A stretch of DNA of 64,000 nt. Source: Tridacna crocea. Taxonomy: Eukaryota > Mollusca > Bivalvia > Cardiida > Cardiidae. Position numbers and translations under genes: made by a program. Position 1 is the stretch's first letter; each line of letters starts with the position of its first letter. Positions 19,101 to 55,300 of the stretch are shown here, in pieces. Below the pieces are notes generated by a model that was not told the origin of the DNA, ran no database searches, and was given only the letters and a program-made list of their open reading frames with translations. The stretch spans positions 4,541,001 through 4,605,000 of the forward strand of contig OX031062.1 of NCBI GenBank assembly GCA_943736015.1, read 5' to 3'.

Positions 19101-22100
19101 GTGTAGTGAAGGATTAAATGGATGCTGCCGCTTGATTTTGTAATGTAATTTTGGATTGAGTTTATGTAATATTTCGTCCCTGTACTGGTCACACAATCCC
19201 GAGTTTTGAAAACCACAAAGATGAAAAAGTCTGTTGAACTGCATTCAGTGTGGGAAAAGAAGGAAATGTTGGTGCCCTGCTTTGTATTACAGGGTACGAT
19301 TTGAACAAATCTGTCGCAAAGATGTAGAAGTACCAGGAATTACGATCATGAGGGATGTCGCCATCATCAAGTCAGAGTTTGTTCCTGACCAGAAAGCCAT
19401 TACAAAAATTCAAACCTGGCACACTGACGAAGTATTGTGGGAATACTGCAGTCATCCAGAGGTGTAGTTTTAGACTATGTAACAGTAATTATTTTGCTAA
19501 AAATATCTCTGAGAGCCATGCTCTGGCAAAAGGGGGCTTAACCCTTTACCAAACAATCCCTGGTTTTTTCACGTCCCTGAGAAAGAAGCCTTTCTGAAAA
19601 CATTGTGGGAAAAGAAGAAAATGCTGGTAACCAGCATTTTCTTCTTTTCCCGCAATGTTTTCTACCACTTCCAATACAAATTTCATATTTTCAGTCACTT
19701 TTATTTTGTTGTCTGCAAATGCTTTCAATTTGGACAAGCCTAAAATATTGCCGTTTGGTAATGAGTTAAAGCATCTCCGTGTTCCATGGTTCCAAACAAG
19801 GTATCTCATACTCATTGATCTAAAGTATCCAAGTTTGTTAAACTCTTTCCCAAACGGCAAATTGGACCAGACCAAATTGAAAGCATTTTGCAGATGACAA
19901 ATCAACAATTGCTAAAAAGATGATTTTTCTATATGATAGAGTAGAAAACATTGTGGGAAAAGGAGAAAATGCTGGTCACCAGCATTTTCTCCTTTTCCCA
20001 CAATGTTTTCAAAAGGCTTCTTTTCCTGACCCGTAAAAACCAGGGCTTGTTTGGGAAAGGGTTAACAACCAACTCAATTTTGACTGAGACAGGCCCTTAG
20101 ACATACAGATGAATGGACCAATAGTGAAAAGTATTGTTTTTATGAATGGTGGATGAATATCTTAGAGTAACATTTTGACAAATCAAGTCACAAATCAGTG
20201 CATTCATGTACTGTACTTAACACAAGATACATCGTAACACAATATTAAGAACTGTATTTGACAATGTAGATACAGATTTTTCGTCTGTCATGAGTGTGTT
20301 TTTTCATTTTCATCAGCAACAAATGAGCTATGGTCTGCGCAAAGGGGGCTTAGTGCATCTGCAAAGATTTTCTCCTTTTCCAGCAGTGTTTTCAGAGGCT
20401 GTGGTCCTCTCTGAAATTCAGGTGAGCGATCCAGGGCCATCTTGGCCCTCTTGTTTCATGAGAATGTCTTTGGGCAAGACATTCTATAGTCTCACGTAGG
20501 TCTAATAAAATCTAGGACATGCATCTATATGTGAGCTGTCACAGGGCTCTGATCGAAATGATGTTGAAGCAGTTTAAGAAACATCCAATCAATCAATCAA
20601 TTAATCAGTTTATACTTTCAGATCATTGACTATGTGGAATGTTTCCTTGGACCAGACATTGTGGCTATGCATACCATGCTCATCAACAAACCACCAGATC
20701 CAGGTACCTGTATTATAGCATTAACCCATTACCACATGACAATATTTTAGACTGGTCCAAATTGAAAGCATTTGCAGATGACAAAATAAAAGTGACTGAA
20801 GATTTGAAATTTGTTTTGTGAAGGGTAGAAAACATTGTGGGAAAAGGAGAAAATGCTGGTTATCAGCATTTTCTCCTTTTCCCACAATGTTTTCTTAATG
20901 CTTCTTCTCAGGGGCGTCAAAAGTAGGGATTGTGTGGTAATGGGTTAACTCTATGAACACTCTGAACACATTCTAGGTCAATTGAATATTTTGGAACACT
21001 GTGCCCTAACCTGTTCTTCAGAACATGTTCTGATTGTTCTAATTTAACCCTTTATCCCATAGGGCATTTCTGTGGTATCTCTAATTGACTGTAAATAACA
21101 GCAAGGATAAAGCCATTTTTAATGGGTATATGACACCTTTTGATAGCATAGAAAACATTGTGACAAAAGGTGAAATTGCTCGTCATGAGCAATTTCACCT
21201 TTTGCCACAATGTTTTCCAAAGACTCCTACAAGCAATGCATAGAAATGAATATCTATGGAGTCTTACGAACAAAGTCCGTAACAAAGAAACAAATGAATA
21301 GATGCATGGCAGAAATAAGGTACCGAGCGGGATTCGAACCCCGAACTCCCGGACGCAAGGCCAATACCGTAACCACTGAGCCAAAGAGATATCTCCCTGA
21401 CGCAGTAGCCAGGTATTGTATTTAATCCGGGAGTATGCCTTGCAGGAAGGAGTGGTCTCCCGTAACACACCCCCTCTTAAAGTCATCATTTATTGATGAC
21501 TCAAAGCCTTATTAGGCAGGAAGTCTGATTTTTGGACAACAAATGGGACTAATGGCTCAATGGCCAATCCCGGAAGAGCCCCCATCTTACGAACAAAGTC
21601 TGTAACAAAGAAACAAAGGAATAAATGCATGGCAGAAATAAGGTACCGAGCGGGATTCGAACCCCGAACTCCCGGACGCAAGGTCAATACCATAACCACT
21701 GAGCCAAAGAGATATCTCCCTGACACAGTAGCCAGGTATTGTATTTAAACCGGGAGTATGCCATGCAGGAAGGAGTGGTCTCCCGTAACAGGAGAAAAGG
21801 GTTAATGGAGATGCAATGCACCTGCATTACAAAATTATTTCTAGGATTACCATTTATAACTTAGAGTTGCCTGTATGCTTTTATAAAACCATTTGATTTA
21901 GCTTATCAGAAATTATGTTACATTCAGATTCAAAGAAAATTCTTGAGAATAAGACAAAGAATATTCTTAAGGATGGTTGGTGAATACAGATCACTGTCTT
22001 TTTCACCCTTTAACTCTTTACGAAAGAACAAAATCTTAGACATGTCCAAATTGAAAGCAGATGCAGACCACAAAATAAATGTAACTAAAAAATTGAAATT

Positions 22101-25100
22101 TGTGTCCATCAGGGTAGAAAACACTGTGGGAAAAGGAGAAAATGCTGGTTACCAGCATTTTCTCCTTTTCCCACAATATTTTCTCAAAGCTTCTTTCTTA
22201 GGTTGTCAAAAGTAGGGATTGCGTGGTAATGGGTTAAAATTGGAGAGGACACTTACAGTTTTGTAATGGAAACTTCGAAATATCCTTACCTCTTTACCAC
22301 ATAAGTAGTTTTGTAGACTCAAGAAAGAAAAAAAAGCGATTGAAAACATTGTTGGAAAAAAGGAGAAAATGTTGGTAACCATCATTTTCTCCTTTTCCAA
22401 CAATATTTTCTACCCTATCAAAGATAGAAACCATCGTTTAAGCTACCTTTAAATTGTGGTCTGCAAATACTTACTATTTGGTTGAGTACAAAATATGTAA
22501 TTTGGTAAAGACTATATTCATTTTTGCCTTCTCCACAATCCACACTTTTTCTCATCGACAGGTAAAATGACCTCCAGGCATCCTATGCATCAGGACTTGT
22601 ATTATTTCCCATTTAGACCAGCAGACAGAATTGTCTGTGCATGGACAGCCATGGAGAAAGTCAACAGAGCCAATGGTTGTCTGGTGGTTCTACCTGGCAC
22701 TCATAAAGGGAAGTTACTCCAGCATGACTATCCAGAATGGGAGGTAACCAACTCATCAAAGTAGTTGGAGATTTCTGTTGACTTAACTCATTTTCAGTAT
22801 TTTAACTCATTAACAAATGACAACATTTTGGGCTTGTCCAAATCGAAAGCATTTTCAGATGACAAAATTAAAGTGAGTGAAAATTCTAAATTTATTTTGT
22901 GAACAGTAGAAAACACTGTGGGAAAAGGAGAAAATGCTGGTTACCAGGATTTTCTCCTTTTCCCACAATGTTTTCTAAATGCTTCTTTCTCAGTCGTCAA
23001 AAGTAGGGATTTGTAAAGTAATGTGTTAACTCCCTTTGTCACAGGATATGTATCAGATCTAGCTTTTCTATGTATGATTTTGATAAGACCACCAACATTT
23101 CGATTCACAGGCAGTCAGGAAATATGTTCCAGCGTGCTGGTCTTTTCTCATTTTTGAACTAAATCTTCATCAGATGACGATACTTTAGGCTGGCCCAAAT
23201 TGAAAACCCTTGCAGATCATGATACCTTGAAGGTGGCTTAAATGACAAAATTTATCCTTGATAGAATAGAAAACATTGTGGTTACCAGCATTTTTGTCTC
23301 TTCGCACAAAGTTTTCAAAAGCATTCTTCCTCAGGGTCGTTAAAAATCAAGACTGTAGGAAAAGGAGAATAACGGGTAATGGGTTAACATCTGTTGAGTC
23401 TTTATTGCAGAAGATAGATAAACCATCTTTTTATATATTGAGTAAAGCATATTCAAAATTTGAAGGTCATGCCACAAGTAAGAGACATTTTGAAAAACGG
23501 TCACTGTCTTTATTGAATTGTATGAAAAACAAAGTGGTTAAAGGAGGAATTGTTAGTTAATAGCAGTTCTTCCTTTCCCAAAATTTTATCAAACAACCTT
23601 ACCACAAAAAAAATGAACGTGCTCAGAAGTAATAACATAATTTATACTGACAAAAAAACCAATCTACTTTTTAAACAGGGAGGTGTAAACAAAATGTACC
23701 ATGGTGTTCGAGACTTCAGTCCAGACCTCCCCCGTGTTCACTTGGAGATGGAAGCTGGGGATACTGTGTTCTTTCATCCCTTGCTGATTCATGGATCAGG
23801 GGCCAACAAGACCCAGGGATTCAGGAAGGTGGCAATTCTATTATATCCCAAAGGACAAAATTTTGGACTAGACCAAATTGAAAGTGTTTGTAGTCAACAA
23901 ATCAAATGTAATGTGAATGATGATTTTTGTATTTGAAAGGGTAGAAAACATTGCTGGAGAGGGAGAAAATGCTGGTAACCAGCATTTTCTCCTTTTCTTA
24001 CAGTGTTTTCAAAAGCTTTCTTTCCCAGCATTGTAAAGACCAGGGATTGTCTGAGAAAGGATTAACTCTTTACCACACTATCCCAACTTTTAACGACCCT
24101 GAGAGAGAAGCCTTCTGAAAACATTGTTGAAAAAGGAGAAAATGCTGGTAACCAGCATTTTCTCCTTTTCCCACAATATTTTCTACCCTTTCCAAAACAA
24201 ACTTCCATTTTTCAGTCACATTCATTTTGTTGTCTGCTAATGCTTTAAATTTGGACCAGTCTAGAATTTTGTCGTTTGGTAAAGAGTTAAGCCTCAAAGC
24301 ACTTTTCAATTCTAAAAGTTCTTTTGTGGGCAGTGTGAAACTAAATCAGACTATACGAAACATGTAGACTGATCTTTGATCTACACTGTCCGTTCTGCTC
24401 TGCCATTCTGGCCAAAAGCAGCCATGGAAAAGCTGGTATTTTGCCAAACTGAAAGTGTCAATTTTTGTATGTGAACTCTTTACCAAATGATAAAAATTTT
24501 AGACTGGTCCAATTTGAAAGCATTTGCAGATGACAAATGTTAACCAGAAATTGAAATCAGTTTTAGGAGGATAGAAAACATTATGGGAAAAGGAGAAAAT
24601 GCTGGTTACCAGCATTTTCTCCTTTTCCCAGAATGCTTTCAAAAACCTTCTTTCCCAGAGTTGTTAAAAGTTGGTGTTGTGGGGTAAAGGGTTAATTGTG
24701 GGAATTTTCTTTGAAAGGGTAGAAAACATTGTTGGGAAAGGAGTTAATGCTGTTTACAGATTGTAATTTATCCACATTGGAAGGAATTGTAGGTAATAAT
24801 TTGAGTATGTCTCAAGTAAAGGAATTTGTTTACTCGGTTGTAAGGTCACACAGCTTAGTGAAACTTGTTTCCAAACTTGATGCTCACTTACCTGAGCTTT
24901 AGCTTTGAATGCAAATTTTTTGCATATACAGTAAAGTGAAAGGCAGCAAAGAAATACACAGTTACCATATATATTTACAGGCTATTTCCTGTCACTACTG
25001 TACAGGGAACTCGCATTTTGTCAGCATGAAAGGTACTGTACAGGAAACCATTGAGGATGAGGTGCTTGACATAGCCACGAAAAACACAGGAATCCCCAAA

Positions 25101-26124
25101 GACCAGATTAAATATGAGGTAATGCAGCTTTAGACAAAGGGCTATAGGTGAGAGAAAGAGATATGGAGGGAGGGATGGAGGGAGAGAGGAAGAGAGAGAG
25201 ACACACACACACATACAGAGAGAGAGAGAGAGAGAGAGATATGGGGGTGGCTTGCAGACAGTTAGAGGCAAACACAGAGAGACACGCACACAGAAAGAGA
25301 AACAAACATTCACACTTAAAAAGGTACACACACACACACTTACAGATAGTGATTTTTTCTATAGCTTTCTCAAATAACATTGAGTTGTAGGGAAGACCTA
25401 AATTAGAATGGTGGAGGAAAGGAAAATGTCCTTTTGGAATGGTCATTAACCCTTTCCTGAATATAGCCTTTGTCAATGACCCAGGTAGAAGGCTTTAACC
25501 CTTTACCCCATAAGGCATTTCTATTGTGTCTCTAATTGACCCTAAATTGCAGAAAGGATGAAGCCATTTTTTATGTGTTTATGACACCTTTTGATAGCAT
25601 AGAAAACATTGTGACAAAAGGTGAAATTGCTCGTCGCGAGCAATTTCACCTTTTGCCACAATGTTTTCCAAAGGCTCCTACAAGCAATGCGTTGAAATGA
25701 GTATCTATGGAGTAAAGGGTTAAAAGCCTAGTATTTTGTTGAATTATTGTGTAGAGCTTTTTCAGAGTCAACATATCATTAGAAAGAAAATGCAATCAAG
25801 TAAATGCTAATATACCATGGTGTCCATGGTCAGGAGGTAGAGCATTGGTCGTGCAACTGTAAGGTTCCGAGTTTGAGACAAGGGAGTAGGTGTCATCTAA
25901 GGGGTTCTTCATTGGCCCAAACATTCTGCACAAGTACTGGTGTAGGTCCGAAGAAGCAGAATCGAGAGAGATTAATAAAAGTTGCAAGAATTTTTTTCTC
26001 AATAGTAGTAAAACAAATATGTTTGAATATTCATATGAATGAAGTGCTGGTTTATTCTCAGGACATTTGGAAGTTCCGGTCCAGGCTGGTGAAAGGGAAG
26101 AAGTCTTGGGATAATGACTGGTAA
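13120..26124 (+). CDS. PHYH: Phytanoyl-CoA dioxygenase, peroxisomal (8 exons)
   Basis: Joined exons 13120-13177, 18126-18288, 19293-19461, 20622-20703, 22562-22743, 23679-23828, 24981-25118 and 26062-26124 give 1005 bp: 334 residues and a stop, close to the ~338 of the vertebrate enzyme. Family role: 2-oxoglutarate/Fe(II) dioxygenase that 2-hydroxylates phytanoyl-CoA in peroxisomal alpha-oxidation. Visible residues: PTS2-type R4-L5-x5-H11-I12 near the N-terminus; iron ligands H167-x-D169 and H256; R267 for 2-oxoglutarate. All sit 8 positions before the human H175, D177, H264 and R275. All junctions keep frame and have GT/AG. Introns are packed with MITEs in both orientations, one TRIM-like element and one SINE, yet no exon is broken. 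5' and 3' UTR ends were not determined. Confidence 0.95.
13395..13508 (-). mobile_element. TTAA-hairpin MITE right half
   Basis: TTGAGAAAAGGAGAAAATA palindrome followed by a degenerate right terminus ending GAGTTAA. Confidence 0.6.
13505..13725 (-). mobile_element. TTAA-hairpin MITE, strongly decayed
   Basis: Left TTAACTTTTTACTAAACAAC and GTAGAAAACATTGTGGACAA are recognisable; the right arm is diverged. Confidence 0.6.
13729..13910 (-). mobile_element. TTAA-hairpin MITE, strongly decayed
   Basis: TTTTTTTACCAGTGAATAAA left end, GAAAGAAAACATTGTTGC and CCAAAAGCCTTCTTTCTCAA; the palindrome is broken. Confidence 0.5.
13973..14198 (+). mobile_element. TTAA-hairpin MITE, type C
   Basis: TTAACCCTTTCCCAAACAAG left end, arms GAAATTGCTCGTCATGAGCA, right end TTTGGGAAAGGGTGAA. 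Confidence 0.88.
14234..14488 (-). mobile_element. Decayed TTAA-hairpin MITE with a second right arm
   Basis: The right arm occurs twice (GCATTTTCTCCCATTTCC near 14372 and GCATTTTCTCCCTTTTC near 14411), as in 44218-44478. Confidence 0.55.
14507..14546 (+). mobile_element. TTAA-hairpin MITE left-end fragment
   Basis: TTTTAACCCTTTATCATCAA directly before the next copy. Confidence 0.4.
14543..14768 (-). mobile_element. TTAA-hairpin MITE, type A (GGGGCGTCAAAAG variant)
   Basis: Both TTAA ends; palindrome with minor changes. Confidence 0.9.
14784..15006 (-). mobile_element. TTAA-hairpin MITE, type A, mutated target ends
   Basis: Ends have decayed to TTCA and TTGA; palindrome intact. Confidence 0.85.
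15013..15083 (+). mobile_element. TTAA-hairpin MITE central fragment
   Basis: GGAAAAGGAGAAAATACTGG, then a degenerate right arm and TTTTCTACCC. Confidence 0.5.
15084..15316 (-). mobile_element. TTAA-hairpin MITE, decayed palindrome
   Basis: TTAA left, TCAA right; the right arm is replaced by a T-rich run. Confidence 0.7.
15313..15582 (+). mobile_element. TTAA-hairpin MITE with triplicated loop region
   Basis: TCAA left, TTGA right. The inner arm GAAAATGCTGGTAACCAG is followed by two further GAAATGCTGG-type copies (15392-15440) before the right arm. Confidence 0.85.
15617..15695 (+). mobile_element. TTAA-hairpin MITE right-end fragment
   Basis: TTTGTTGTCTGCGCATCG to GGGTAGAGACGTAA. Confidence 0.45.
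15789..15968 (+). mobile_element. TTAA-hairpin MITE lacking its palindrome
   Basis: Both TTAA ends and both flanking halves are intact, but GAAAACA runs directly into GTGTTTTC: the ~50-bp palindrome is cleanly missing. Confidence 0.9.
16010..17113 (+). mobile_element. TTAA-hairpin MITE interrupted by a HINE
   Basis: The palindrome at 16014-16076 is cut after CTCCTTTTTCTC and resumes at 16990 with TCCCACAATG, running to a right TTAA at 17110-17113. The left terminus is not recognisable. Confidence 0.8.
16077..16989 (-). mobile_element. Pearl-like rolling-circle (HINE) element
   Basis: Read on minus: 5' ACAAGAGCGGCAAATTGTCG, hairpin-forming CCCGTCTTACCCC region, five ~155-bp core units (boundaries near 16920, 16767, 16610, 16453, 16296, 16139), a GCCCGCCCGCCC stretch and the 3' hairpin CCCGTCTTTGACGGG. 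Same family as 31992-32870. Confidence 0.8.
17178..17245. mobile_element. TTAA-hairpin MITE central fragment
   Basis: AGCATTGTGGGAAAAGGAG and TTTTCTCCTTTTCCCACA arms around an unrelated centre. Confidence 0.6.
17441..17671 (-). mobile_element. TTAA-hairpin MITE, type A
   Basis: Both TTAA ends; palindrome centre GGTTTACC has one inserted base. Confidence 0.9.
17730..17955 (-). mobile_element. TTAA-hairpin MITE, type A
   Basis: Left TTAA, nearly perfect palindrome, right TTAA decayed to TTTA. Confidence 0.87.
18126..18288 (+). CDS. PHYH: PHYH exon 2
   Basis: Encodes [19 protein letters not shown] and following, then [16 protein letters not shown], typical of the N-terminal part of the dioxygenase. 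Donor AG|gtaagt, phase 2. The in-frame ATG at 18128 could be an internal start that would lack PTS2. Confidence 0.92.
18303..18531 (+). mobile_element. TTAA-hairpin MITE 15 bp after a splice donor
   Basis: ACACAATCCCGAC left part (TTAA lost) begins ~15 bp downstream of the exon 2 donor; right TTAA present; the palindrome centre holds an extra CAGTTACC. Confidence 0.88.
18545..18660. repeat. GATCAAGATCAGA foldback repeat
   Basis: CAGTGTAGATCAAGATCAGA and CTGATCTTTGATCCACACTG form an inverted pair. Confidence 0.6.
18739..18967 (-). mobile_element. TTAA-hairpin MITE, type A
   Basis: Both TTAA ends; intact inner palindrome. Confidence 0.9.
18964..19117 (-). mobile_element. TTAA-hairpin MITE, left-truncated
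   Basis: From TTTGATAGGATGGAAAACAT through a mutated palindrome to the right TTAA. Confidence 0.7.
19184..19275 (+). mobile_element. TTAA-hairpin MITE left half next to an exon
   Basis: CACACAATCCCGAGTTTTG and GTGTGGGAAAAGAAGGAAAT are recognisable; the remnant ends ~17 bp before the exon 3 acceptor. Confidence 0.6.
19293..19461 (+). CDS. PHYH: PHYH exon 3
   Basis: Acceptor TTACAG; encodes [20 protein letters not shown] and on to WEYCSHPE. Donor GAG|gtgtag, phase 0. Confidence 0.95.
19538..19769 (+). mobile_element. TTAA-hairpin MITE, paired GAAGAAAA/TTTTCTTC arms
   Basis: Both TTAA ends. Both arms carry the same change (AAGAAG / CTTCTT), keeping the stem paired. Confidence 0.9.
19838..20065 (-). 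mobile_element. TTAA-hairpin MITE, type D
   Basis: Both TTAA ends with the TTTCCCAAACGGCAAATTGG subterminal form; palindrome centre GGTCACC. Confidence 0.9.
20331..20455 (-). mobile_element. Repeat mosaic with HINE 5' end
   Basis: A GCAAAGGGGGCTTAGTGCAT remnant, a MITE arm scrap, then 20412-20452, which on minus reads ACAAGAGGGCCAAGATGGCC, the 5' hairpin end of the 56818-59106 family. Confidence 0.6.
20622..20703 (+). CDS. PHYH: PHYH exon 4
   Basis: Encodes [20 protein letters not shown] through NKPPDP, phase 1 donor G|gtacct. Confidence 0.95.
20721..20948 (-). mobile_element. TTAA-hairpin MITE 18 bp after a splice donor
   Basis: Both TTAA ends; palindrome centre GGTTATC. It begins 18 bp after the end of PHYH exon 4. 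Confidence 0.9.
21044..21805 (+). mobile_element. TTAA-hairpin MITE, type B, interrupted by a TRIM-like element
   Basis: TTAACCCTTTATCCCATAGG left end, arms GTGAAATTGCTCGTCATGAG, right end AAAAGGGTTAA after the insertion at 21262-21790. Confidence 0.88.
21262..21790 (-). mobile_element. TRIM-like element with tRNA-like sequence in its LTRs
   Basis: Two 206-bp direct repeats (21262-21467, 21585-21790; by eye ~9 differences) flank 117 bp. On minus the repeats begin TGTTACGGGAGACC and end GTTCGTAAGA. The interior begins TGGGGGCTCTTCCGGGAT, a possible primer-binding site, and ends AAGAGGGGGTG, a possible polypurine tract, directly before the second repeat. GGAG flanks both sides of the insertion in the type B MITE. 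Each repeat contains a B box identical to GGTTCGAATCC (complement at 21330-21340, 21653-21663) and an A-box-like TGGCTCAGTGG (complement at 21373-21383, 21696-21706). No coding capacity. Confidence 0.7.
21926..21990. repeat. Foldback-MITE fragment (empty TTAA site)
   Basis: GAATATTCTTAAGGATGGTT then GGTGAATACAGATC, the complement of the family interrupted at 4531-5620. Confidence 0.6.
22010..22236 (-). mobile_element. TTAA-hairpin MITE, type A
   Basis: Both TTAA ends; palindrome intact in the inner part. Confidence 0.9.
22284..22513 (+). mobile_element. TTAA-hairpin MITE, paired TTGTTGG/CCAACAA arms
   Basis: Terminal TTAAs decayed. Left arm ATTGTTGGAAAA pairs with right arm TTTTCCAACAAT, and GTTGGTAACCATC is also nearly paired. 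Confidence 0.82.
22562..22743 (+). CDS. PHYH: PHYH exon 5 (iron-binding HxD)
   Basis: Encodes [20 protein letters not shown], containing H167-Q-D169, then VVLPGTHKG. Acceptor CGACAG, donor GAG|gtaacc. Confidence 0.97.
22802..23029 (-). mobile_element. TTAA-hairpin MITE, type A
   Basis: Both TTAA ends; arms CACTGTG/CACAATG, one unpaired site at the centre (CCAGGAT). Confidence 0.88.
23152..23386 (-). mobile_element. TTAA-hairpin MITE with left arm deleted
   Basis: ACATTGTG joins directly to GTTACCAGCA; the left arm is missing. Right TTAA present. Confidence 0.75.
23520..23600. mobile_element. Decayed MITE palindrome
   Basis: AGGAGGAATTGTTAGTTAAT and AGCAGTTCTTCCTTTCCC form a weak inverted pair. 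Confidence 0.35.
23679..23828 (+). CDS. PHYH: PHYH exon 6 (third iron ligand, 2OG Arg)
   Basis: Encodes [20 protein letters not shown] then GFRK. H256 completes the facial triad and R267 is the 2-oxoglutarate-binding Arg. Phase 0 on both sides. Confidence 0.97.
23845..24065 (-). mobile_element. TTAA-hairpin MITE close to an exon
   Basis: Begins ~17 bp after PHYH exon 6; left TTAA not recognisable, right TTAA shared with the next copy. Confidence 0.85.
24062..24290 (+). mobile_element. TTAA-hairpin MITE, type A
   Basis: Both TTAA ends; palindrome nearly complete. Confidence 0.9.
24310..24440. repeat. GATCAAGATCAGA foldback repeat
   Basis: CAGTGTGAAACTAAATCAGA and CTGATCTTTGATCTACACTG, the same family as 18545-18660. 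Confidence 0.55.
24472..24695 (-). mobile_element. TTAA-hairpin MITE, type A
   Basis: Left TTAA mutated to GTGA; palindrome intact; right TTAA present. Confidence 0.88.
24692..24760 (-). mobile_element. TTAA-hairpin MITE internal fragment
   Basis: TTGAAAGGGTAGAAAACATT and a short arm; the remainder is gone. Confidence 0.45.
24981..25118 (+). CDS. PHYH: PHYH exon 7
   Basis: Encodes [20 protein letters not shown] and a helical acidic stretch; phase 0, donor GAG|gtaatg. Confidence 0.94.
25141..25346. repeat. GA-rich and CA-rich simple repeats
   Basis: (GAGG/GAGA)n, then (CA)n and (GA)n tracts starting 23 bp after PHYH exon 7. Confidence 0.9.
25446..25494 (+). mobile_element. TTAA-hairpin MITE left-end fragment
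   Basis: TTAACCCTTTCCTGAATATA only. Confidence 0.4.
25495..25723 (+). mobile_element. TTAA-hairpin MITE, type B
   Basis: Both TTAA ends, 229 bp; centre GCTCGTCGCGAGC inside a perfect stem. The cleanest type B copy. Confidence 0.92.
25806..25990 (+). mobile_element. SINE, tRNA-like head
   Basis: GGAGGTAGAGCATTGGTCG head and conserved body ACATTCTGCACAAGTACTGG, GAAGCAGAATCGAGAGAG. A second copy lies inverted at 39047-39238. Confidence 0.65.
26062..26124 (+). CDS. PHYH: PHYH exon 8 (terminal)
   Basis: Encodes [20 protein letters not shown] and TAA. The acceptor TTTATTCTCAG fixes the start; the [12 protein letters not shown] motif matches the family C-terminus. Confidence 0.95.
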   Translation, partial: DIWKFRSRLVKGKKSWDNDW

Positions 26125-26189
26125 ACATGTGACAGAGGTAATGTTGATGTGCGAATTTATTCTTCAGTGACAATTTTTTTTAATCCTAT

Positions 26190-27000: not shown

Positions 27001-27003
27001 CTG

Positions 27004-27229: not shown

Positions 27230-27250
27230 CTGCATTGGTTTTTATAAGAG

Positions 27251-27440
27251 TCAATTCTGTACCACACAATTCCAACCTTTTGAAAACATTGTGAGAAAAG
27301 GAGAAAATGCTGATAACGAGCATTTTCCCCTTTTCTCACAAAGTTTTCAGCTCTGTCGAGGAAAATTGTGTCATTTTTGCCATCTTTGGTGTCTGCAATT
27401 GCTTCCAATTTTGACATGTCCAAAATTTTGTTGTTTAGTT
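27251..27440 (+). mobile_element. TTAA-hairpin MITE, internally deleted, paired GTGAGAA/TTCTCAC
   Basis: TCAA left end; part of the left half missing; both arms carry the GAGAAAAG/CTTTTCTC pair. Confidence 0.75.
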
Positions 27441-27631
27441 TATCAGTTTATGAATTAGAAATCATAGAAAAGTTGTGTAAGACAAGTCAGCATATTAACT
27501 GTGTTACTCATTAGAACTGATGGAAAATTATTTTTGCTCACTTTTACTATTTTTGTTGGAAAAGACAAAAAAAAGTACTTATTTCTAAACCTCATGATTT
27601 ACTTTCACAAGATTTGTCATTGCATTTTACT

Positions 27632-27861: not shown

Positions 27862-27901
27862 ATGGGTATAATGATTATTTGATGTAGTCATTGTTATTGA
27901 T

Positions 27902-28436: not shown

Positions 28437-28668
28437 TTAATCCTTTCTTATAACGAAACAGATTTTTGACTTGTCGAAATTGAAAGCATTTGCAAGTGAC
28501 ATAATTAAATGTAACTCAAAAGGGAAAAACTGTCTGACAAAAGGTAGAAAACATTGCAGGGAAAGGAGAATATGCTGGCTTTCAGCATTTTCTCCTTTTC
28601 CCACAGTGTCTTCAAAAGCTTTCTAGGTGATGGTTACTAAAACTAATGGTTGTGATGACATCAGTTAA
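28437..28668 (-). mobile_element. TTAA-hairpin MITE, diverged
   Basis: Both TTAA ends; palindrome partly mutated at the centre (GGCTTTCAGC). Confidence 0.85.
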
Positions 28669-28892
28669 CTCTTTACCATACAACCCTGACTTTTACCAAC
28701 CTTGGAAAGAAAGCCATCGAAAACATTGTGGGAAAAGAAGAAAATGCTGGTTAGCAGCATTTTCTTCTTTTTCTACAGTATTTTCTATTCTTTCCAAATC
28801 AAATTTCAGTTTTTGATTGACATTTATTTTGTTGTCTGCAAATGCTTTCAATTTGAACCAGTCTAAAAATGTGTTGTTTGGTAGAGATTTAA
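28665..28892 (+). mobile_element. TTAA-hairpin MITE, paired GAAGAAAA/TTTTCTTC arms
   Basis: Shares TTAA with the previous copy; centre GGTTAGC. Confidence 0.87.
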
Positions 28893-29990: not shown

Positions 29991-29995
29991 TATTT

Positions 29996-33681: not shown

Positions 33682-33810
33682 GTCTTATTTTCAAATATTT
33701 CTAAAAATTTGAAAGTAACAGAAAATTCTGATTGGCCAAACCAATTGGTTTAGCCAATCAGAAGTTTTGTTACTTTGGTTTAGCCAATCAGAGGTTGTGT
33801 TGTGATTAAA
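33682..33810. repeat. Foldback-MITE fragment (CCAAT hairpin)
   Basis: TTCTGATTGGCCAAACCAAT and TTGGTTTAGCCAATCAGAAG form a hairpin like that at 5476-5620; the right arm is partly duplicated. Confidence 0.7.
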
Positions 33811-37167: not shown

Positions 37168-37390
37168 TCAACTCCTTACCACACAAGAAAATTTTAGACA
37201 TACTAAAAGTATTTGCAGACAACAAAATAAAGGTGACTGAAACATTAAAATTTGGTTTGGGAAGGGTAGAAAACACTGTGGGAAAAGGAGAAAATGCTGG
37301 TTGCCAGCATTTTCTCCTTTTCCCACAGTGTTTTCTAAAGGCTTCTTTCTCAGGGTTTTCAAAAGTAAGGGTTGTGTGGTAATTGGTTAT
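37168..37390 (-). mobile_element. TTAA-hairpin MITE, paired CACTGTG/CACAGTG arms
   Basis: TCAA left, TTAT right. Both outer arms carry the C/G version, keeping the stem; centre GGTTGCC. Confidence 0.88.
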
Positions 37391-38081: not shown

Positions 38082-38291
38082 CCCATTACCACACAACTGC
38101 AAGTTTTAACAAACCGGAGAAAGACACCTGCAGAAAACTTGTGGGAAAAGGAAGAAAAATGCTGTTAACCAGTGTTTTTTTCCTTTTCCCACCATGATTT
38201 CTAATCCAGTCATTTTAGCTATACATTTTGGACTAGTATAAAAATTGTCTTCTGGTAACCAGTTAAATATTGTTGTTTGGTAACGAGTTAA
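38078..38291 (+). mobile_element. TTAA-hairpin MITE, diverged
   Basis: Both TTAAs shared with neighbours; centre GCTGTTAACCAG; right half shortened. Confidence 0.82.
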
Positions 38292-38521
38292 CCCTTTTCC
38301 ACACAATCCCAAGTTTAACGACCATAAAGAAAAAAGACTTCGAAAACATTGTGGGAAAAGAAGAAAATGCTGGTAACCAGCATTTTCTTCTTTTCCCACA
38401 ATGTTTTCTATTATTCCCAAAACAAATTTAGATTAGATTCTTAAATCAAATTTATTTTGCCATCTGCAAATGCTTTCAAAATGGACTGGTCTTAACATTT
38501 TGTTGTTTGGTGAAGAGTTAA
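38288..38521 (+). mobile_element. TTAA-hairpin MITE, paired GAAGAAAA/TTTTCTTC arms
   Basis: Both TTAA ends; stem perfectly paired with the AAGAAG/CTTCTT change. Third of three consecutive copies joined through shared TTAAs. Confidence 0.92.
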
Positions 38522-39864: not shown

Positions 39865-40096
39865 TTAATCCATTACCATACAATCCCGAATTTTGACGAC
39901 CCTGGAAAAGAAGCCTTTTGAAAACATAGAAGGAAAAGGAGAAAATGCTGGTAACCAGCATTTTCACCTTTTCCAACAATGTTTTCTACCCTTCCAAACA
40001 AAATTAAAATTCATTTTTTAATTCAGATTTATTTTGTCGTCTGCAAATGGTTTCAATTTGGACTGGTCCAACATTTTGTCATTTGGTAAAGAGTTA
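39865..40096 (+). mobile_element. TTAA-hairpin MITE, type A
   Basis: Both TTAA ends; inner palindrome intact, outer left arm mutated (CATAGAAGG). Confidence 0.9.
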
Positions 40097-40322
40097 ACGC
40101 TTTTCTCCATAGATACTCATTTCTATGCACTGCTTGTAGGAGCCTTTGGAAAACAATGTGGCAAAAGGTGAAATTGCTCGTGACGAGCAATTTCACCTTT
40201 TGTCACAATGTTTTCTATGCTATCAAAAGGTGTCTTATACACATAAGAAACGGCTACATCCTTGCTGTTATTTAGGGTCAATTAGAGATACCATAGAAAT
40301 GCCTTATGGGGTAAAGGGTTTA
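40093..40322 (-). mobile_element. TTAA-hairpin MITE, type B
   Basis: Shares TTAA with the previous type A copy; perfect GCTCGTGACGAGC stem; right end TTTA. Confidence 0.9.
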
Positions 40323-40459: not shown

Positions 40460-40582
40460 GTGAAAGATCGAAATTTATTTCATCGAGTGAACACCATCGG
40501 TAATATTTTCACCAGTGGCGCAGCCAGGAGTGAAAATATTACTGATGGTGTTCACGAGATGAAATAAATTTCGATCTTTCAC
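40460..40582. repeat. Foldback element, 53-bp arms
   Basis: Left arm 40460-40512 and right arm 40530-40582 are inverted, ~49/53 matching by eye, around a 17-bp spacer. The same arm sequence is expanded into an array at 55843-56150. Confidence 0.85.
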
Positions 40583-41392: not shown

Positions 41393-41618
41393 TTAACCCT
41401 TTCCCAAACAAGCCCTGGTTTTTACATGTCTGTAGTAAAAGTCTTTTGAAAACACTGGGAAAAGGAGAAATTGCTCGTAACGAGCAATTTCTCCTTTTCC
41501 CACAGTGTTTTCTACCTTTTTTGAGAACTTTCTGCCATTTCCTCCAGATCTAAAATTGTCGTCTGCAAACTCTTTCGGTTTGGAAGGGTCCAAAATCTAT
41601 CGTTTGGGAAAGGGTTAA
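41393..41618 (+). mobile_element. TTAA-hairpin MITE, type C
   Basis: Both TTAA ends; centre GCTCGTAACGAGC, stem nearly perfect. Best type C copy. Confidence 0.92.
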
Positions 41619-41756: not shown

Positions 41757-42865
41757 TCTCATGTGTCACTTCAGCTTATTGAACCTCAGTCTAAATAGCT
41801 GGTAAATAGCCAGTTTCTCTTTCCTTTTATATCAGCTAGTTAATGGTGTATCTAAATAGCCCATTTCTCTCTTTTTTATCACTTAACCCATAACCACACA
41901 ATCCCTACTTTTGACAACCCTGAGAAAGAAGCCTGCAGAAAACATTGTGGGAAAAGAAGAAAATGCTGGTAACCAGCATTTTCTTCTTTTCCCACAATGT
42001 TTTCTACTCTTCAAAATACCAATTTCAAATTTTCAGTCACTTTTATTTTGTCATCTGTAAATACTTTTGATTTGAACAAACCTAAACTTTTGTCACGTGG
42101 TAATGAATTAAGATATTTAGTGCTACATCTAAATAGCCTTTTTCTCTTTTAGTCAGGTGCATCCAAGATGCCATTTTCATCTATTGTGTCACTTAAGCTT
42201 ACGGTAATTCTCATATCCTATTTCCTAAATGTGTCACCTGAGCTGGTCAATGGCACATCTAAATATTTCTTTATTGCGTCATACAAGAGGTATATTGTGT
42301 GTCTGGATAGCCTTTTACTTATATGTGTCATTTTAGCTTGTAAATACATCTTTACATATAAATAGCTTATTGATTCATTGTGTCACATACATAGGTCATT
42401 GGTACATCTAAACATTTCTTTACTTTGTCACCTCAGCTGGTCAACGGTGCAGCAATATACCATATTTCTTTATTGAGTGAATGAATGAATTTTGTGAGAT
42501 GTATGTGAGAGATTGTGAGTGTGTCACATGTCATTTACGTTCTTCAGGATTTATCACCTTATATGATGAGAATCTTTGTTTAAGTCTTGTTTGTTTGTTT
42601 GTTTGTTTGTTTGTTTGTTCGTTAGTTAGTTAGTTAGTTCATTCGTTCATTGGTTCGTTCAATCATTCATTCATTCATTTGTTCATTCATATTTCTTTAT
42701 TGTGTCACATGAATTTGTTAATTGTACATCTAAATAACGTTTTTCTCTATTGTGTCACCTCAGCAGGTCAATGGTGTACCTAAACACCTATTTTTTTTAC
42801 TATTTAGCCTTTTTCTTCTTTGTGTCAATGAGATTTTATAATAGTAGGTGTAAATAACCTTTTTG
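41757..42865 (+). repeat. Degenerate ~55-bp minisatellite
   Basis: Repeated TGTGTCACCTCAGCTGGTCA then ATGGTGTATCTAAATAGCC units, heavily diverged, with a MITE inside (41884-42111) and a tetranucleotide tract (TTTG/TTAG/TTCA) at 42585-42690. Confidence 0.75.
41884..42111 (+). mobile_element. TTAA-hairpin MITE, paired GAAGAAAA/TTTTCTTC arms
   Basis: Both TTAA ends; fully paired variant stem. Inserted in the minisatellite. Confidence 0.92.
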
Positions 42866-43355: not shown

Positions 43356-46300
43356 CTGAAAGTAAAGAACAAAATCACAGTTAACTTTTGCCAAACAACA
43401 AAATTTTGGACCCAGCAAAATTGTGAGCATTTGCAGATGACAAATTAACTGCTGCTCAAAAATGATCTCAGTCTAAGGAATGGTTGATTGATTGCATGGT
43501 GTTTAACGTTGGAGATGACAAAGTTATGCTCCGGACGAAGAACTATTCTAAAGAACTTTCTAATTCAAGGGCATATAACTCAAGATGTACTGATTCGATT
43601 ACACCCATAATCGAACTCATGCGAGATCTTATGGTCATGTATATTTTTACCAAGTTCGGTGCCGAATGGTTAATAAATGTAAATGCTAGAATGTAAACAA
43701 AGTCAAATATAGCAGTTTTTCTAATTCAAGGGCAAGTAACCCCAGTCCTTCTAATCTGATTAGACCCATAATCAATCTCATCCAAGATCTTATGGTATTT
43801 TAAATCTATTATTTCTCTTCCAAACCCTATGTTGAGGGTACTCATTAGAATCGTCTCAATTAGATGATTCTAATGAATACACATAACATGGGATTAACGT
43901 CTCAGTTAGGCAATTCTAATGAATACCCATAACATAGGATTAAGTGAAGAATTATTAATATTTTCAGTTTTGAAATCAAAATCCCTCCCTCTACCTAGAG
44001 CTCTACATAAGGAACAAATAGATGAAGTACCATCAATTATCTATGCCAATGGGTAGGCCAGAAGAAAAATAAGAAAAGAATAAAACTTACAGAAAATAAT
44101 TCCAATGAGCTGACATCTGATCTCAGATCAGCCACAGCACCACGAGTAACAATACGCACATAAGCAGGTAAGGAGTCTGAACTGGTATCTCCAGACTGTT
44201 AAAAAACAAAAACATTTCATTTACCCCTTACTAAATAATAATACCACAATATAATGTCCCCATAGAAAAAGGCTTTCGAAAACATTGTGGAAAAAGGAGA
44301 AAATGCTGGTTACCAGCATTTTCTCCTTTTTCCACAATGTTTTTTTACAACCAGCATTTTCTCCTTTTTCCACAATGTTTTCTACATTTTCAAAAGACAA
44401 TTTCATCATTCTGGCTACATCTAATTTGTCATCTGTAATTCTTTTTAAACATTGAGCCTTCCAGGAGAAGGTAGAGTTAGCCCTATACCACACAATCTTC
44501 TGTCATAAGAACGCCCAGGTAGAAATCTTTTGAAACATAGGAATAGGAAAAAATGCTTGTTATTTTATTACGTCTTCTTTAACTTTTAAGAGTTAATTCT
44601 TAACCAATCAATTTCTTGCTATCAAAACACTATGGAAGAACAAATGAAATGTGGGCAAAGGAGAAAATGCTGATCATCTCCATTTTCTTTTTTCCCTTTC
44701 ACTTAGAATTCGCATCATTTGTGTCAAGTGCTCACAAAGAATATGGAAGAATATACAATTTTGTCACCTAACAAGTTGCACTCACTAACCATTTTTAGGG
44801 AGATTCTTAGGTTTATGCTAAAATTTTCTGAAGATTTAAAAGTACAATTTCTGATTGGCAAAAATATTGAATTAGGTAGATTATAAGTTGCAATACTTTC
44901 TTTACCAAGAATTAGGCTTAAAATGAATGGTTAGTGAATTCAGACCCTAGCAAAGAGTTAACTCTTTCCCACACAACAACATTTCGGACTTGCCTGATTT
45001 CAAAGTATCTGGAGAATTCATGATAAATATTACTCAAAAATATTGAAATTTGTTACTGAAAGGGTAGAAAATATTTTAGGAAAAGGAGCAAATGCTGGTT
45101 ATTTTCTCCTTTTTCCACAATGTTTTCCAAAGTCTTCTACCCTAGGATAGTCAAGAGCTGGGATTACGTGGTAAGGGTTCTATAGACCAAATATAAGTTG
45201 CTATATTAGAAAACTGAGCAAAGTACAGGTAAAAAAAAAAAAAAAACTACATGAAAGCATAGATAGGTGCACTGGCCAGCATAGTATAACCAACATAATG
45301 TTGAAATAGCTTTTAACACCATACAATCTATCAGTCAAAGTAACATCTACTTACCATACTTGGTAATGCTATCCCTGAACTGAAGCAGTATTTCTTCATA
45401 TCATCTAGAAAACCTGTAACAGGAAGTGACATTTCCTTAACAATCTTGGATATGAATGGTTTAGTACAAAAGTAAGAGCTGGGGGAGATAGTTCTGCAAC
45501 AAATCGCAGCAGGTTCATGAAAATTAAACATGCACAGCTTCATATAGACAGGAACAATGTGTGTAAATTTGAGTTCAGTATCTGAAAAACTGTTGGAGTA
45601 TTGCTCCGGACAAATTTGCATCTACCGAATGACAGACAGACAGACAGACATACAGACGGACAATCAGCCATGGCGATTCCAGTATAACTCCCTCCACTAC
45701 TTTGTGGGGGGGTATAAATATCAGAAACGCCAACAGATTGTTCCCCCATGGGTGACAGATTTGTCGACCCAATTATTGACATAATGACAGACAGTGTGAC
45801 CCCAGTATGGTCCTCCAAAATTCTTTCAGGAACATAACAACACTAAAAAGGATGAATAAGTAAGTATTTGTGTCCAGAAAAATTTATAGGAGTATTTACC
45901 TCTTATAACAAAATACCATAACAAATAAAAATCTGGATCTGCTTTCTCACTGATGACCACTATCTCATTGTCTTTTTTTGGCACCTGAAACATACATGTT
46001 TGTTTGAGTTTAACTATTTACCACATAGTCCCAAGTTTTAATGACCCTGAAAAAGATAGCCTTTAGAAAACATTTTGGGAAAAGGAGAAAATGCTGGTGA
46101 CCAGCATTTTCTCCTTTTTCCAAAATCTTTTCAACCCTTTCTAGAACAATTTTCTCTATTTGAGCCACATTTAAAATTTCGTCTGCAACTGCTTTCAACT
46201 TGGATCAGTCTAACATTGTGTCATTTGGTATAGAGTTAAACCTATACTAAACAATTTCCTTCTATCAATGAGCAATACTGCTTTAAAAAACATTATGAGG

Positions 46301-49300
46301 AAAGGAGAAAAAAATGCACAAAATCAGCAATGTTTACTCAATGTACTTTACTTCTTCAAAAACAAACGCCATCATTTGAGCCACACAGAACTTGTAGTCT
46401 GTAAGTGCTTTCAATTTGGTCATCTATCAAATTTTACCTTTTGGTAAAAATCAAGCTCAAATACTTCGATTGCCCCTTTTTAGAAAATATTCAATGCAAG
46501 CTACAAAAAATATTCTAACAAAGGTATGCACTTATCCAAAAGAGCACTAAGTTACAGTTCCTTTCAAAATTAGTTTGATTTTCAGTGAAACCTTGAAATT
46601 GAAAAAGAGGCATGCATGTGTCAAAAATATTTTGATGGTTACTTGCCCCTATGGAATGGGTTCCCCTGTTCATAGAAAACTAATCTGTCAAGTTTGAAGT
46701 AAATATCTTCAGTAATAACAAAGTTAAATGTGAATGTATGTGAATGTGGATGAAGCAGATGACAATACAGATAACACAGAGAATGCCAAGGCAGTGATAA
46801 TATCTCAATGTTTTTTTTTTTTTTTTTTTTTTTAACCCTTTACTCCATAGATACTCATTTCTACGCACTGCTTGTAGGAGCCTTGGAAAACATTGTGGCA
46901 AAAGGTGAAATTGCTCGTGACGAGCAATTTCACCTTTTGTCACAATGTTTTCTGTGCTATCAAAAGGTGTCATATACACATAAGAAATGGCTTCATCCTT
47001 GCTTTTATTTAGGGTCAATTTGAGATACCCTAGAAATGCCTTATGGGGTAAAGGGTTAAACACAGTCGATCTAGAAAGTTGTCTACAACACATAATGACT
47101 TACACAAAACCCAAAAAACAAAAACAAATACTTACTAAATTAGCAAAGGCTACTGCATTTCCAAATCTAACAGTTAGACCTAAAAGATGATGTATACGAA
47201 CTATGTCAGAGAAGTAACTACGTCCTGGAAAGTCATGGTTATAATGTAAAGCTGCCTTTCTCCATAACTCTGTGGTACCTATAAACAGAGTATCTGTTAG
47301 ACATAGAACTACTATTAACCCATTACCACACAATTCCTACTTTTGACGCCCCTGAGAAAGAAGCCTTTAGAAAACATTGTGGGAAAAGGAGAAAATGCTA
47401 ACATTGTGGGAAAAGGAGAAAATGCTGGTAACCAGCATTTTCTCCTTTTCCCACAATGTTTTCTACCCTTTACAAAACAAATTTCAAATTTTCAGTCACT
47501 TTGATTTTGTCATCCCCAAATACTTTCAATTTGGACCAGTTTAAAATATTGTCGTTTGGTAATGGGTTAATGGTTGTAATGATTCAAATGATAACTAGAG
47601 CTATTGCTAAACATGCTTATACCCCCCCAATAGCTCCTTGTGACAAAAACAGGTCTATGTCACAGAGTGCAGGATGTTTTAGTACAAAAGTAAGAGTTAA
47701 CAAACATTCAAGGGGAGATAATTCCCCAACAAATTGCAGCAGGGTCATAAAAATTACACATGCACAGCTTCATATATGTAGGAACACTGTGTGTAGATTC
47801 GAGTTCAGTGCATGAAAAACTCTTAGGAGTATTCCTACAGACAAATTTTGTCTATGACCGATGAAGGATGGACGGACAGAGAGACAGACAGATGGAATGA
47901 ATTACGGAGAGACATGGCAATTCCAGTACACCCCCCCTCCACTTTGTTGCAGGGGGTTTAAAGGTGGCCCTTCAGATTTTGGGACGAAAATTTAACAAAA
48001 ATGCAAAAAAATCATCCTTATACTCCCAAAGCCTTTTAATTTGCATTCATAAAACCCCAGTAGTCGAAAACTATCCAATAACACGAGAAATTAGAGATTT
48101 ATTAAGGACCAGGTTGACACCAACGGTAGACACATTCTATATTTAGATTATCAATTCTCTCATTTAAATACAGGAAAACACAGACAAAGCTTCAAAGATC
48201 AGTCTGAAGAAGACATTATGGAAAATAGTTATTACATGTTTCTTATGTAATGGAATTTAAGCGTTATTAGTCACGTGCCAGTCACTTGACATTCTCACAA
48301 TGCTTTATTGGTTTTTGGCGCGAAATCTAAAAATAGCTTAAGAGGCTACGTAGCCTTTTAAGGGAATACCATCAAAAAATTTTTTTTTAGAATTTTATGA
48401 TTATTAATTATTGATGATTTGTATTGTTTTTTTCATATAAATTTCAGTGATATATATATTTTTTGATTTGGTGTGATGTGAAAATTCTAAATACCCACCT
48501 TTAATAATGATTTAATGACAATAATAAGAACAAGGCATGGGCATGTCAATGCAGAGCTGCAGTTGCTTTTTGATACTCAGCCAAATTTCTAAATTTCACA
48601 CAGAAACACCTACCCTGATATGTATCCCTGTCTAAAAATCCATGAACATGAGGGTGCACCTGACTGGCCCCTGCTGCTGGCAGGAGATCCCAGATTAAAG
48701 ATGGGTACAGATAGCTTCTGTCATATTGATGTACTTTTTGGAACCTGTAATTAACCAATCATAATATCTTTTTACAACTTTTTACACCAGACAGAGTCAA
48801 CAGATTTCAAAAACACAGTGGGAAAAGGATATCATATTTACTTATAATTGTATGTCCCATAGATTTAACCCATTACCACACAATCCCTACTTTTGACGCC
48901 CCTAAGAAAAGAAGCCTTTTGAAAACACTATGGGAAAAGGAGAAAATGCTGGTAACCAACATTTTCTCCTTTTCCCACAGTGTTTTCTACCCTTCCCAGC
49001 ACAAATTTCTATTTCTTAGTCACCTTTATTTTGTCATCTGCAAATGCTTTCAATTTGGACCAGTCTAAAATTTCGTTGTGTGGTAAATGGTTAAACAAAA
49101 AAAAAAAAAATACTCTTTCCTTTAATCTCCCTCGCCATTAGCATTTTTCTAATCTATTTGGTTTGACTCCTATTTATCTCCTTCTTCAGAAAGTAAAATG
49201 CCACTTGGGGTGTTAAATAAAGAAAAATTGGCATTTTCAAACAATCAAGTAAATGACATCTCCATATAAATATCTATTTCCAGTACATTGCACAATATTC

Positions 49301-52300: not shown

Positions 52301-55300
52301 GGAACTGGAAAATGAATATTAAACTCTTCTCTTTTTTTTTGTGGCTTAACTCTTTACCAAACGACAAAATTTCATACCGGTTCAAACTGAAAGCACTTGC
52401 AGACGACAAAATATATGTAACTCAAAAATTGAAATTTGTTTCCAGCAGACAAAATGGACTCATTACCAAACGACAAAATTTTAGACTGGTCCAAATTGAA
52501 AGCATTTGCAGACGACAACAAAGTGACTGAAAATTCGAAATTGTTCTGTAAAGGGTAGAAAACATTGTGGGAAAAGAAGAAAATGCTGGTAACCAGCATT
52601 TTCTCCTTTTCCCACAATGTTTTCTAAAGGCTTCTTTCTTAGGGGCATCAAAAGTAGGGATTGTGTGGTAATGGGTTAATGACAATAATAAGAACATGGC
52701 ATGGGCATGTCAATGCAGAGCTGCAGTTGCTTTTTGATTCTCAGCCAAATTTCTAATTCAAGTCCAAATAGAGGCATAACTGTGTCAAATCTATTTGGGT
52801 ACTGATTATATACCCCCCCCACCAGCTCCTTGTCACAAAAACAGGTCTTTGTCACAGAATGCAGGATGTTTTAGTACATCCCGGTTATCAGCATTTTCTC
52901 CTTTTTTCTCAATGTTTTCAAAAGGCTTCTGTCTCAGGGTCGTTAAAACCAGGGATTGTTTGGTAAAGGGTTAATATGAAGAAAAAAGAATAGTAAAACA
53001 ATAGCCTTGAAAGCAAATGCCCCAGTTTTCCTCAATGTCGTTCATTATGTTGAAAAGTGGAATTTTTTATCAGATGTATGCCAGTATTTCATATTTAAAA
53101 CGATGTAATTCATCTTTGAAAAAGTAAAAAATGTTAAACACTGCATGTATAATTTATGTATATTAACAGTTTAGTAACCAATCCAAGCACTACCATTAGT
53201 GCTCTTCACTTAACCCTTTACCAAAAAATCCCTGGTTTTTATGACCCTGAGAGAGAAGCCTTTTGAAAACATTGTGGGAAAAGGAGAAAATGCTGGTAAC
53301 GAGCATTTTCTCCTTTTCCCACAATGTTTTCTATCTTGCTCTAAACTAATTTCAGTTTTTAAGTAACATTTATATAGTCGTCTGGAAGTGCTTTCAATTT
53401 GGACGAGTTTTAACTCTTTACCAAACAACATATTTTGGTCTCGTCCAAACTAGAAGCATTTCCAGACAACAAAATAAATGTATCTCAAATGATGTTTTTT
53501 GTCTTTGTGATAGGGTAGAAAACATTGTGGGGAAAGGATAAAACCCTGGTTACCAGCATTTTCTCCTTTTCCCACAATGTTTTCAAGAGGTGTGTTAAAA
53601 ATCTGGATTGTGTGGTAAAGGGTTAACTTCGTCAGAGAGCAGTTCATCCATCATACTGTAGACTCTTAACCAAACGACAAAATTTTGGACTAGTCCAAAT
53701 TGAAAGCATTTGTAGACAACAAAATAAACATGAATCAGAAATTAAAATTGGATTTGTGAAGGGTTAAAAAGCGTTGTGGGAAAAGGAGAAAATGCTGGTT
53801 ACCAGCATTTTATTCTTTTCCCACAATGTTTTCAAAACGCTTCTTTCACAGGGGTGTTAAAAGCCAGGATTGTGTGGTAAAGGGTTAGTAGGGTTTACGT
53901 TTGCTTTACTGTCTGAGTTAATAGGTTTTACAAAATGTCACCCTGAGGGAAAACACTACATACTTAGGTAAAAAAATTTGGGAAAGAGAAGAAATGTTGT
54001 TAACTGGTATCTTCTCATTTTCCAACAATTTTTTTCTGCCCAATCGAGGACAAATCATGTCATTTGAGCCAGATTTAATTTTACCCATTACCACATAATC
54101 CCTACTTTTGACTCCCCAGAGAAAGAAGCTTTCAGAAAACATTGTGGGAAAAGGAGAAAATGCTGGTACCCAGCATTTTCTCCTTTTCCCACATTGTTTT
54201 CTACCTTTCACAAAACAAATTTCAAATTTTGGGTCACTTCTATTTTGTCGTCTGCAAATGCTTTCGATTTGGACAAACCTAAAATTTTGTTGTTTGGTAA
54301 TGAGTTAATTTGTTGTCTGCAATTGCTTTTAACTCTTTACTTCATAAGCCCAACTTTTAACAACCTTGAGAAGGAAAGCTTTTGAAAACATTGAGGGAAA
54401 AGGAGAAAATGCTGGTCACCAGCATTTTCTCCTTTTCCCACAATGTTTTCTACCCTTCCAAAATAAAAATTCAATGTCTGAGTCACAGTTATTTTGTCAT
54501 CTGCAAGTGCTTTCAATTTGGACTGGCCCAAAATTTTGTCTTTTGGTAAAGAGTTACTTTGGACAAGTCAAAAGTTTTGTCTTCTACGAGAGATAGTTTT
54601 ACCCCATTACCACACAATCCTACTTTTGACGCCCCTAAGAAAGAAGCCTTTTGAAAACACTGTGGGAAAAGGAGAAAATGCTGGTAACCAGCATTTTCTC
54701 CTTTTCCCACAGTGTTTTCTACACTTCCCAGAACAAATTTCAATTTTTGAGTGACCTTTATTTTGTCGTCTGCAAATGCTTTCAATTTGGACCAGTCTAA
54801 CATTTTCTCATGTGGTAAAGAGTTACCACATGTTATAAATTCAAATTTTTTTCAACAATGTTTCCAAAAATCTTTTCCTCCTACCAATCTGTAAAACACT
54901 GGGATTTTTGTAGCAAAAGGTTAATTTTTTACCAAATGGCAAAAATTACAAATGTATAACCTTATCCAAATTGAAAGCATATGCAGACGACATATTACAC
55001 TTAGCTCAGATGATGGAATTGTCCCTGATTGAGTAGAAAACATTGAAGGAAAAGGAGAAAATGCTGGTTACTCAACAATTTCTCCTTTTCCTACAATGTT
55101 TTCAAAAGACTTCTTTCTCCGAGTTGTAAAAACTAGAGCTATCACTAAATGTGATTATATCCTCCACCAGCTCCTTGTCATAAAAACAGGTCTTTGTCAC
55201 AGAATGCAGAATGGTTTAGGACAAAAGTTAGAGTAGAAAAAAGTTCAAGGGGAGATAAATCTGTGAAAAAATATCGCAGCAGTGTCATGAAAATTGCACA

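Follow-up and report, generated by a model that had tools for sequence, protein, structure and literature searches.

The stretch analyzed here, a 64,000-nucleotide window of the Tridacna crocea genome (contig OX031062.1, positions 4,541,001 to 4,605,000), contains many copies of a long palindrome. It forms the hairpin at the middle of a non-autonomous piggyBac-type miniature inverted-repeat transposable element (MITE) of approximately 229 bp, with a TTAA duplication and CCC...GGG ends. The MITE consensus is 229 bp with the TTAA at both ends counted in, which makes a transposase-length reading frame impossible, and its palindrome spans 67 nt, consisting of two 33-nt arms and a 1-nt centre (GAAAACATTGTGGGAAAAGGAGAAAATGCTGGT-N-ACCAGC... 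around the centre). Stem pairs are numbered from 0 (outer) to 32 (next to the loop). The terminal inverted repeats of the main-clade consensus read TTAA-CCCTTTACCA.../...TTTGGTAAAGAG-TTAA; termini in clades A3, B and C are GGG-TTAA, and CCCATT variants are present too. Short terminal inverted repeats with a CC(C/T)T-type start, a TTAA target-site duplication, no coding capacity and a small, uniform size are all characteristic of piggyBac-type MITEs. Among 257 near-full-length copies, TTAA is present at both ends in 109, at the left end only in 61, at the right end only in 42 and at neither in 45. An empty site is also found: the joined flanks of copy L018:6013-6241 match window positions 48259-48459 at 90%, with a single TTAA.

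The palindrome was initially described from positions 19538..54826, but it is not limited to that interval; the whole window holds 109 palindromic copies, and 38% of it is MITE sequence. In 20 evenly spaced 10-kb samples (C1-C7), the MITE share is 15.7% (range 0-35%), with 135 copies that include the palindrome, 77 of them near full length. Genome-wide (1,048,827,098 bases in 31 contigs, 18 of them 40-77 Mb), there are 173,858 exact matches to the 35-nt inner core, and the MITE copy number is estimated at 4-7 x 10^5. The available part of a published T. crocea repeat table gives 22.5% rolling-circle repeats (PMC11700175), and the TTAA MITE might be classed there. No account of this MITE family, or of double-change counts such as those given below, was found in the open papers searched.

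The preliminary description stated that variants appear on both arms of the same copy, that stems stay fully paired, and that the stem is conserved between diverging flanks. All of the arm variants that it named are present where it placed them (Table 1), and the covariation exceeds chance: an alignment of 281 copies contains 175 Watson-Crick double changes, compared to 49.5 expected from column frequencies. The remaining pair cells in these copies comprise 7,280 consensus pairs, 1,203 single-arm changes and 77 other doubles. Of the 281 copies, 56 that have many gaps were dropped; type-A counts leave out 22 type B and C copies. The divergence of flank and stem also stands, at about 23% from consensus in the flank and 10% in the stem. 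Full pairing, however, was overstated. Only seven of the 57 palindromic copies in the interval first described are perfectly paired; their pair cells include 176 single changes, 37 paired changes and 10 non-pairing doubles, and 18 of the 22 copies with a paired change carry single-arm or non-pairing changes as well. A G.T mismatch at pair 12 is common to the four type C copies in the table.

Table 1. MITE copies and the central palindrome in the window, with the paired arm changes and mismatches of each copy.
Feature	Positions	Strand	Stem or remarks
MITE copy	5877..6105	+	nested at TTAA within another family copy; joined flanks align gap-free over the junction
MITE copy	19538..19769	+	pair 19 G.C to A.T (GAAGAAAA/TTTTCTTC); one single-arm change
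Type C MITE copy	21044..21267	-	inner arm GCTCGT/ACGAGC; paired changes 13, 20, 25 and 30; mismatch at pair 12
MITE copy	22286..22516	+	pair 11 G.C to T.A; mismatches at pairs 5 and 28
Type C MITE copy	25495..25723	-	inner arm GCTCGT/ACGAGC
MITE copy	27251..27450	+	pair 12 G.C to A.T; four mismatches
MITE copy	28665..28892	+	pair 19 G.C to A.T; five mismatches
MITE copy	37168..37390	-	pair 7 T.A to C.G (CACTGTG/CACAGTG); one mismatch
MITE copy	38288..38521	+	pair 19 G.C to A.T; perfectly paired stem
Type C MITE copy	40094..40322	+	inner arm GCTCGT/ACGAGC; two mismatches
Type B MITE copy	41393..41618	+	inner arm GCTCGT/ACGAGC; paired changes 25 and 30; left arm short by 2 nt
MITE copy	41883..42111	+	pair 19 G.C to A.T; perfectly paired stem
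MITE copy	44220..44466	+	pair 13 G.C to A.T; perfectly paired stem
Type C MITE copy	46832..47059	+	inner arm GCTCGT/ACGAGC; one mismatch
MITE copy	54599..54826	+	pair 7 T.A to C.G (CACTGTG/CACAGTG); perfectly paired stem
67-nt central palindrome of copy 54599-54826	54653..54719	.	33-nt arms, 1-nt centre

The stem changes slowly and remains paired in the lineages that give rise to other copies. The ratio of stem to flank substitutions is 0.42-0.58 in every flank-age bin, and on a flank-based tree it is 0.24 on internal branches and 0.60 on terminal ones. Paired changes number 12 on internal branches, where there are 86 single breaks, and 27 on terminal branches, where there are 776. With a looser cut, five clades have at least five copies, and the subfamily consensus stem is fully paired in four of them; with a tighter cut, it is so in all four clades. 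The flanks of these clades lie 1-39% from the main consensus. The consensus stems of types B and C differ from that of type A by three and four paired changes, respectively, and by no single ones. The unpaired centre base is changed in 35 of 203 copies (17%), similar to an A in the flank (18.4%); the corresponding value for an A in the stem is 6.1%.

Several paired variants that are common in the window trace to a small number of origins. On the flank tree, 25TA (T.A at pair 25) is gained three times for 22 carriers, 30CG twice for 20, 20TA and 13CG once for 15 and 7CG seven times for 21, and the flanks of copies with 7CG resemble one another closely (P 0.000 in 1000 draws). In types B and C and in 7CG, the paired variants are thus inherited from founder copies. 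A weaker founder case is 19AT: seven copies form a cluster in flank distance (P 0.023), yet there are seven gains for nine carriers. Rarer variants are unclustered in the sample (11TA, 2 copies, P 0.77; 11AT, 4, P 0.98; 9AT, 3, P 0.93). Carriers of T.A at pair 24 include a very young subfamily, with near-identical flanks in 10 of the 14 examined, which suggests recent activity.

Other double changes recur. When all other positions of the 35-nt inner core are required to match exactly, pair 24 has 2,237 single-arm changes and 199 doubles genome-wide, against 173,858 consensus cores. A control that combines non-partner positions (left 24 with right 23, and the mirror) yields 19 and 11 doubles, 10 of these 30 being of Watson-Crick type, and this control includes the spread of copy ages. 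Within the same copies, partner-site doubles are therefore more than ten times as numerous as adjacent non-partner doubles, an excess of the kind expected from template switching. Pair 23 has 2,226 single-arm changes and 281 doubles, where about seven are expected under independence; in 20 copies retrieved, its single-arm changes occur in either arm and on mixed backgrounds. For pair 29, the double count alone was taken (130), with neither a single-arm count nor a non-partner control. Carriers were examined from the 50 sites listed per pattern, all on the first chromosomes and so not a random sample, and the letters of listed sites and controls at pairs 23, 24 and 29 were tallied by eye. Among the 50 doubles listed for pair 24, 43 are Watson-Crick (T.A 16, C.G 16, G.C 11) and seven are non-pairing; for pair 29 the corresponding list holds C.G 26, A.T 13 and 11 non-pairing. 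Between the terminal repeats, which are separated by about 190 nt, there is almost no such covariation.

Of the 43 listed pairing doubles at pair 24, 38 were retrieved with their flanks. There are 12-13 origins for the 13 24CG carriers examined and 11 for the 11 24GC carriers, the latter with a mean flank distance of 0.383 (background 0.266). At pair 29, nine origins are found for nine 29CG carriers and ten for 11 29AT carriers, although these backgrounds are divergent and unsampled siblings are likelier; one further carrier, L188, aligned as C.A though the pattern requires C.G, and is excluded from the nine. In two cases the nearest relatives were retrieved. All 20 of those retrieved for L141 (24GC), at flank distances of 6-10%, have A.T at pair 24, as do all 20 retrieved for L139 (24CG), at 5-8%. 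Such independent single-copy origins are another mark of template switching, while 24TA and 23CG mostly belong to clades. If the young T.A clade is set aside, pair 24 is estimated to carry about 125 paired changes for its 2,237 single-arm ones, or roughly one in twenty. An excess also appears among the 109 of 203 type-A copies that are young (three or fewer single-arm changes), which have 11 Watson-Crick doubles where 1.4 are expected (maximum 6 in 300 simulations), in a test that omits pair 7, every TA>CG change and 19AT.

The preliminary description offered two readings of the palindrome, a selected hairpin or arms homogenised by hairpin-templated repair; the data favour arm templating as one source of the paired changes, with selection or biased propagation needed besides. 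The arms probably covary through a combination of founder inheritance, recurrent arm-templated changes, and better propagation of intact hairpins or loss of mismatched sources. In this scheme, founder copies with paired variants have given rise to subfamilies, as seen on the flank tree. Paired changes also arise repeatedly in single copies; the likeliest route by which a base change in one arm would be written onto the other is template switching by the polymerase, or repair copying within an extruded hairpin. Such copying would restore the old base about as often, and it is therefore not the cause of the slow stem; homogenisation was rejected as that cause also because doubles are too few on terminal branches. 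Copies with an intact hairpin may propagate better, or mismatched sources may be lost, so that source lineages would remain paired and founders could carry one-step paired changes. This last component is needed because source lineages are paired across 20-39% flank divergence; with one mirrored change per approximately twenty single-arm changes, and a stem still paired over 39% flank divergence, arm copying must be accompanied by loss of mismatched sources.

It is unlikely that selection on pairing acts alone, with arms that mutate independently and only re-paired hairpins propagating. Paired, slow stems in the source lineages and abundant single-arm intermediates fit such a model, but paired copies should then multiply and leave siblings, and most carriers were retrieved without any. 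A threefold purge of mismatches (stem A 0.028, flank A 0.085) might raise chance doubles perhaps ninefold, to about 45, which falls short of the 125 or so at pair 24, although this bound is an argument rather than a test. Since private doubles in such number go beyond what selection alone would give, arm-to-arm copying is the simplest addition. A still less probable account has every paired variant born once in a source copy and spread by transposition, with later arm mutations independent. The preliminary description named this as the outcome that would refute its idea, and it does hold for several variants: types B and C, 7CG, the young 24TA clade and most 23CG, of which 25 of 31 carriers examined are nearest to clade A2. 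It does not hold for 24CG, 24GC, 29CG and 29AT, with about as many origins as carriers examined, and the two carriers that are private among the nearest relatives retrieved contradict it at pair 24 unless siblings went undetected.

Ectopic gene conversion, in which a core is overwritten by a copy that already carries the paired variant, is very unlikely. Near-identical cores are certainly numerous, and 23CG lies outside clade A2 in six of the 31 carriers, but no donor clade for 24CG or 24GC exists among the copies retrieved, and left and right flanks are linked (r 0.53-0.56) as strongly as positions within the right flank (0.57). Because the two flanks stay linked, the core is not a site of exchange between copies, and recombination there was rejected. 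An assembly or sequencing artefact is extremely improbable. Palindromes are difficult to sequence, and the analysis worked from assembled sequence; some of the variants, however, form founder clades found at many places, and the same copies rarely have non-partner doubles. A role in RNA structure, also suggested at the outset, is unsupported: single-arm changes produce 235 G.U mismatches (plus strand) and 242 A.C mismatches, with no strand asymmetry, and the window has no Rfam match at the gathering threshold.

Several observations weigh against the combined explanation favoured here. Non-pairing doubles at pair 24 (seven of 50 listed, about 28 genome-wide) exceed the roughly 10 expected, and most of them may be decayed paired ones; in young type-A copies they are also high (7, with 1.8 expected). 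Pairs 23 and 24 are both mirrored at no site genome-wide, and an inversion of the centre, which would be a sign of template switching, is not clear, as the centre A has become T in 18, G in 14 and C in 3 of 203 copies (for flank A, 680 to T and 759 to G). The 27 paired changes on terminal branches are few beside the 776 single breaks, and older copies have little or no excess (with 4-7 single changes, 9 doubles and 7.4 expected; with eight or more, 24 and 25.0). The process is therefore weak, or does not act steadily once a copy has inserted. Mismatched lineages do spread, as with the type C mismatch at pair 12, an A.C at pair 13 in five of 21 members of the L139 group, and the exceptional clade (n=6) among those with otherwise paired consensus stems, which retains an A.C mismatch at pair 11. 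Founder clades occur even at the pairs used for the recurrence counts (24TA and 23CG), the flanks of L197 and L202 are identical as shown, and the test of private origin covers only two carriers, for each of which 40 candidates were scored.

It is possible, though doubtful, that the rewriting occurs at transposition, when the element would pass through a hairpin intermediate with one arm templating the other, so that new copies can be born with a paired change. If so, this would explain the excess in copies with few arm changes rather than in decayed ones, as well as the private carriers and the retention of the hairpin, which would be part of how the MITE multiplies. A terminal-repeat-like motif in the arms is weak: three left-end versions in the same orientation give P 0.014, 0.075 and 0.058, the right end P 0.31 and the reversed right end P 0.011. 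Both arms have indels in 39 of 131 indel-bearing copies, with no clean mirrored pair among them besides central deletions.

Some MITE copies abut or lie in tandem (L008:1525-2191, and window positions 2376-2604 and 63256-63708), and at L008 neighbouring copies have four bases in common at their borders. A second palindrome type, around CCAATTGGTTTAGCCAATCAGAAGTT, is present in two copies (5511-5576 and 33722-33767), and a separate inverted repeat with 45-nt arms is located at 40476-40566, with a similar motif in a tandem array at 55850-56142. Other arrays have a 156-bp unit (6495-7085, 16136-16930 and 32052-32864) or a 145-bp unit (14.5 copies, 56944-59029); bivalve satellites of about 160 bp have a period similar to the former. 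An exon of a phytanoyl-CoA dioxygenase-like gene is present at 23550-23936 (PF05721, E 7.1e-12).

Zebrafish Angel and other foldback or hairpin MITEs are self-complementary, and hairpin intermediates have been proposed for them; the clam MITE differs from Angel-type elements in being self-complementary in its centre only. Closer in its ends is CMITE, a group of piggyBac-related MITEs of Acropora corals of about 100 bp, with an estimated 1,600 or so copies (PMC2872659). According to the part of that report available, CMITE and the clam MITE share the TTAA duplication, CCC(T/C)T-type ends, tandem arrays and an interior that is better conserved than their terminal repeats. The clam element is longer (229 bp) and has a 67-nt central palindrome, whereas the same part of the report does not state that the CMITE internal region is palindromic. 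Transposases of the piggyBac type bind short palindromes via paired cysteine-rich domains, reported as 19 bp in piggyBac and about 14 bp in piggyBat (PMC11707139). Those palindromes sit in the element ends, whereas the clam palindrome is in mid-element.

The nearest parallel to the arm-templated changes is template switching, which makes the arms of inverted repeats or RNA stems match in single events (PMC8604942, PMC8794818). As far as the available sections of these two papers go, the known cases resemble the clam hairpin in producing compensatory-looking changes without selection. They differ in that multi-base mirrored tracts, typical of the known cases, are rare in the clam MITE, where two copies have them (L061 at pairs 14-15 and L190 at pairs 9-10), and in that they concern yeast coding DNA and RNA genes, while the clam case is a dispersed repeat with a non-partner control within the same copies. 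Paired changes in a stem are usually taken as proof of structural selection; here a sizeable share of them seems due to arm copying. If this is correct, the MITE family would be a natural reporter of hairpin-templated mutation in an animal, and would call for caution in covariation tests of RNA. The template-switch process itself is already known; its proposed setting here, a dispersed MITE, is new.

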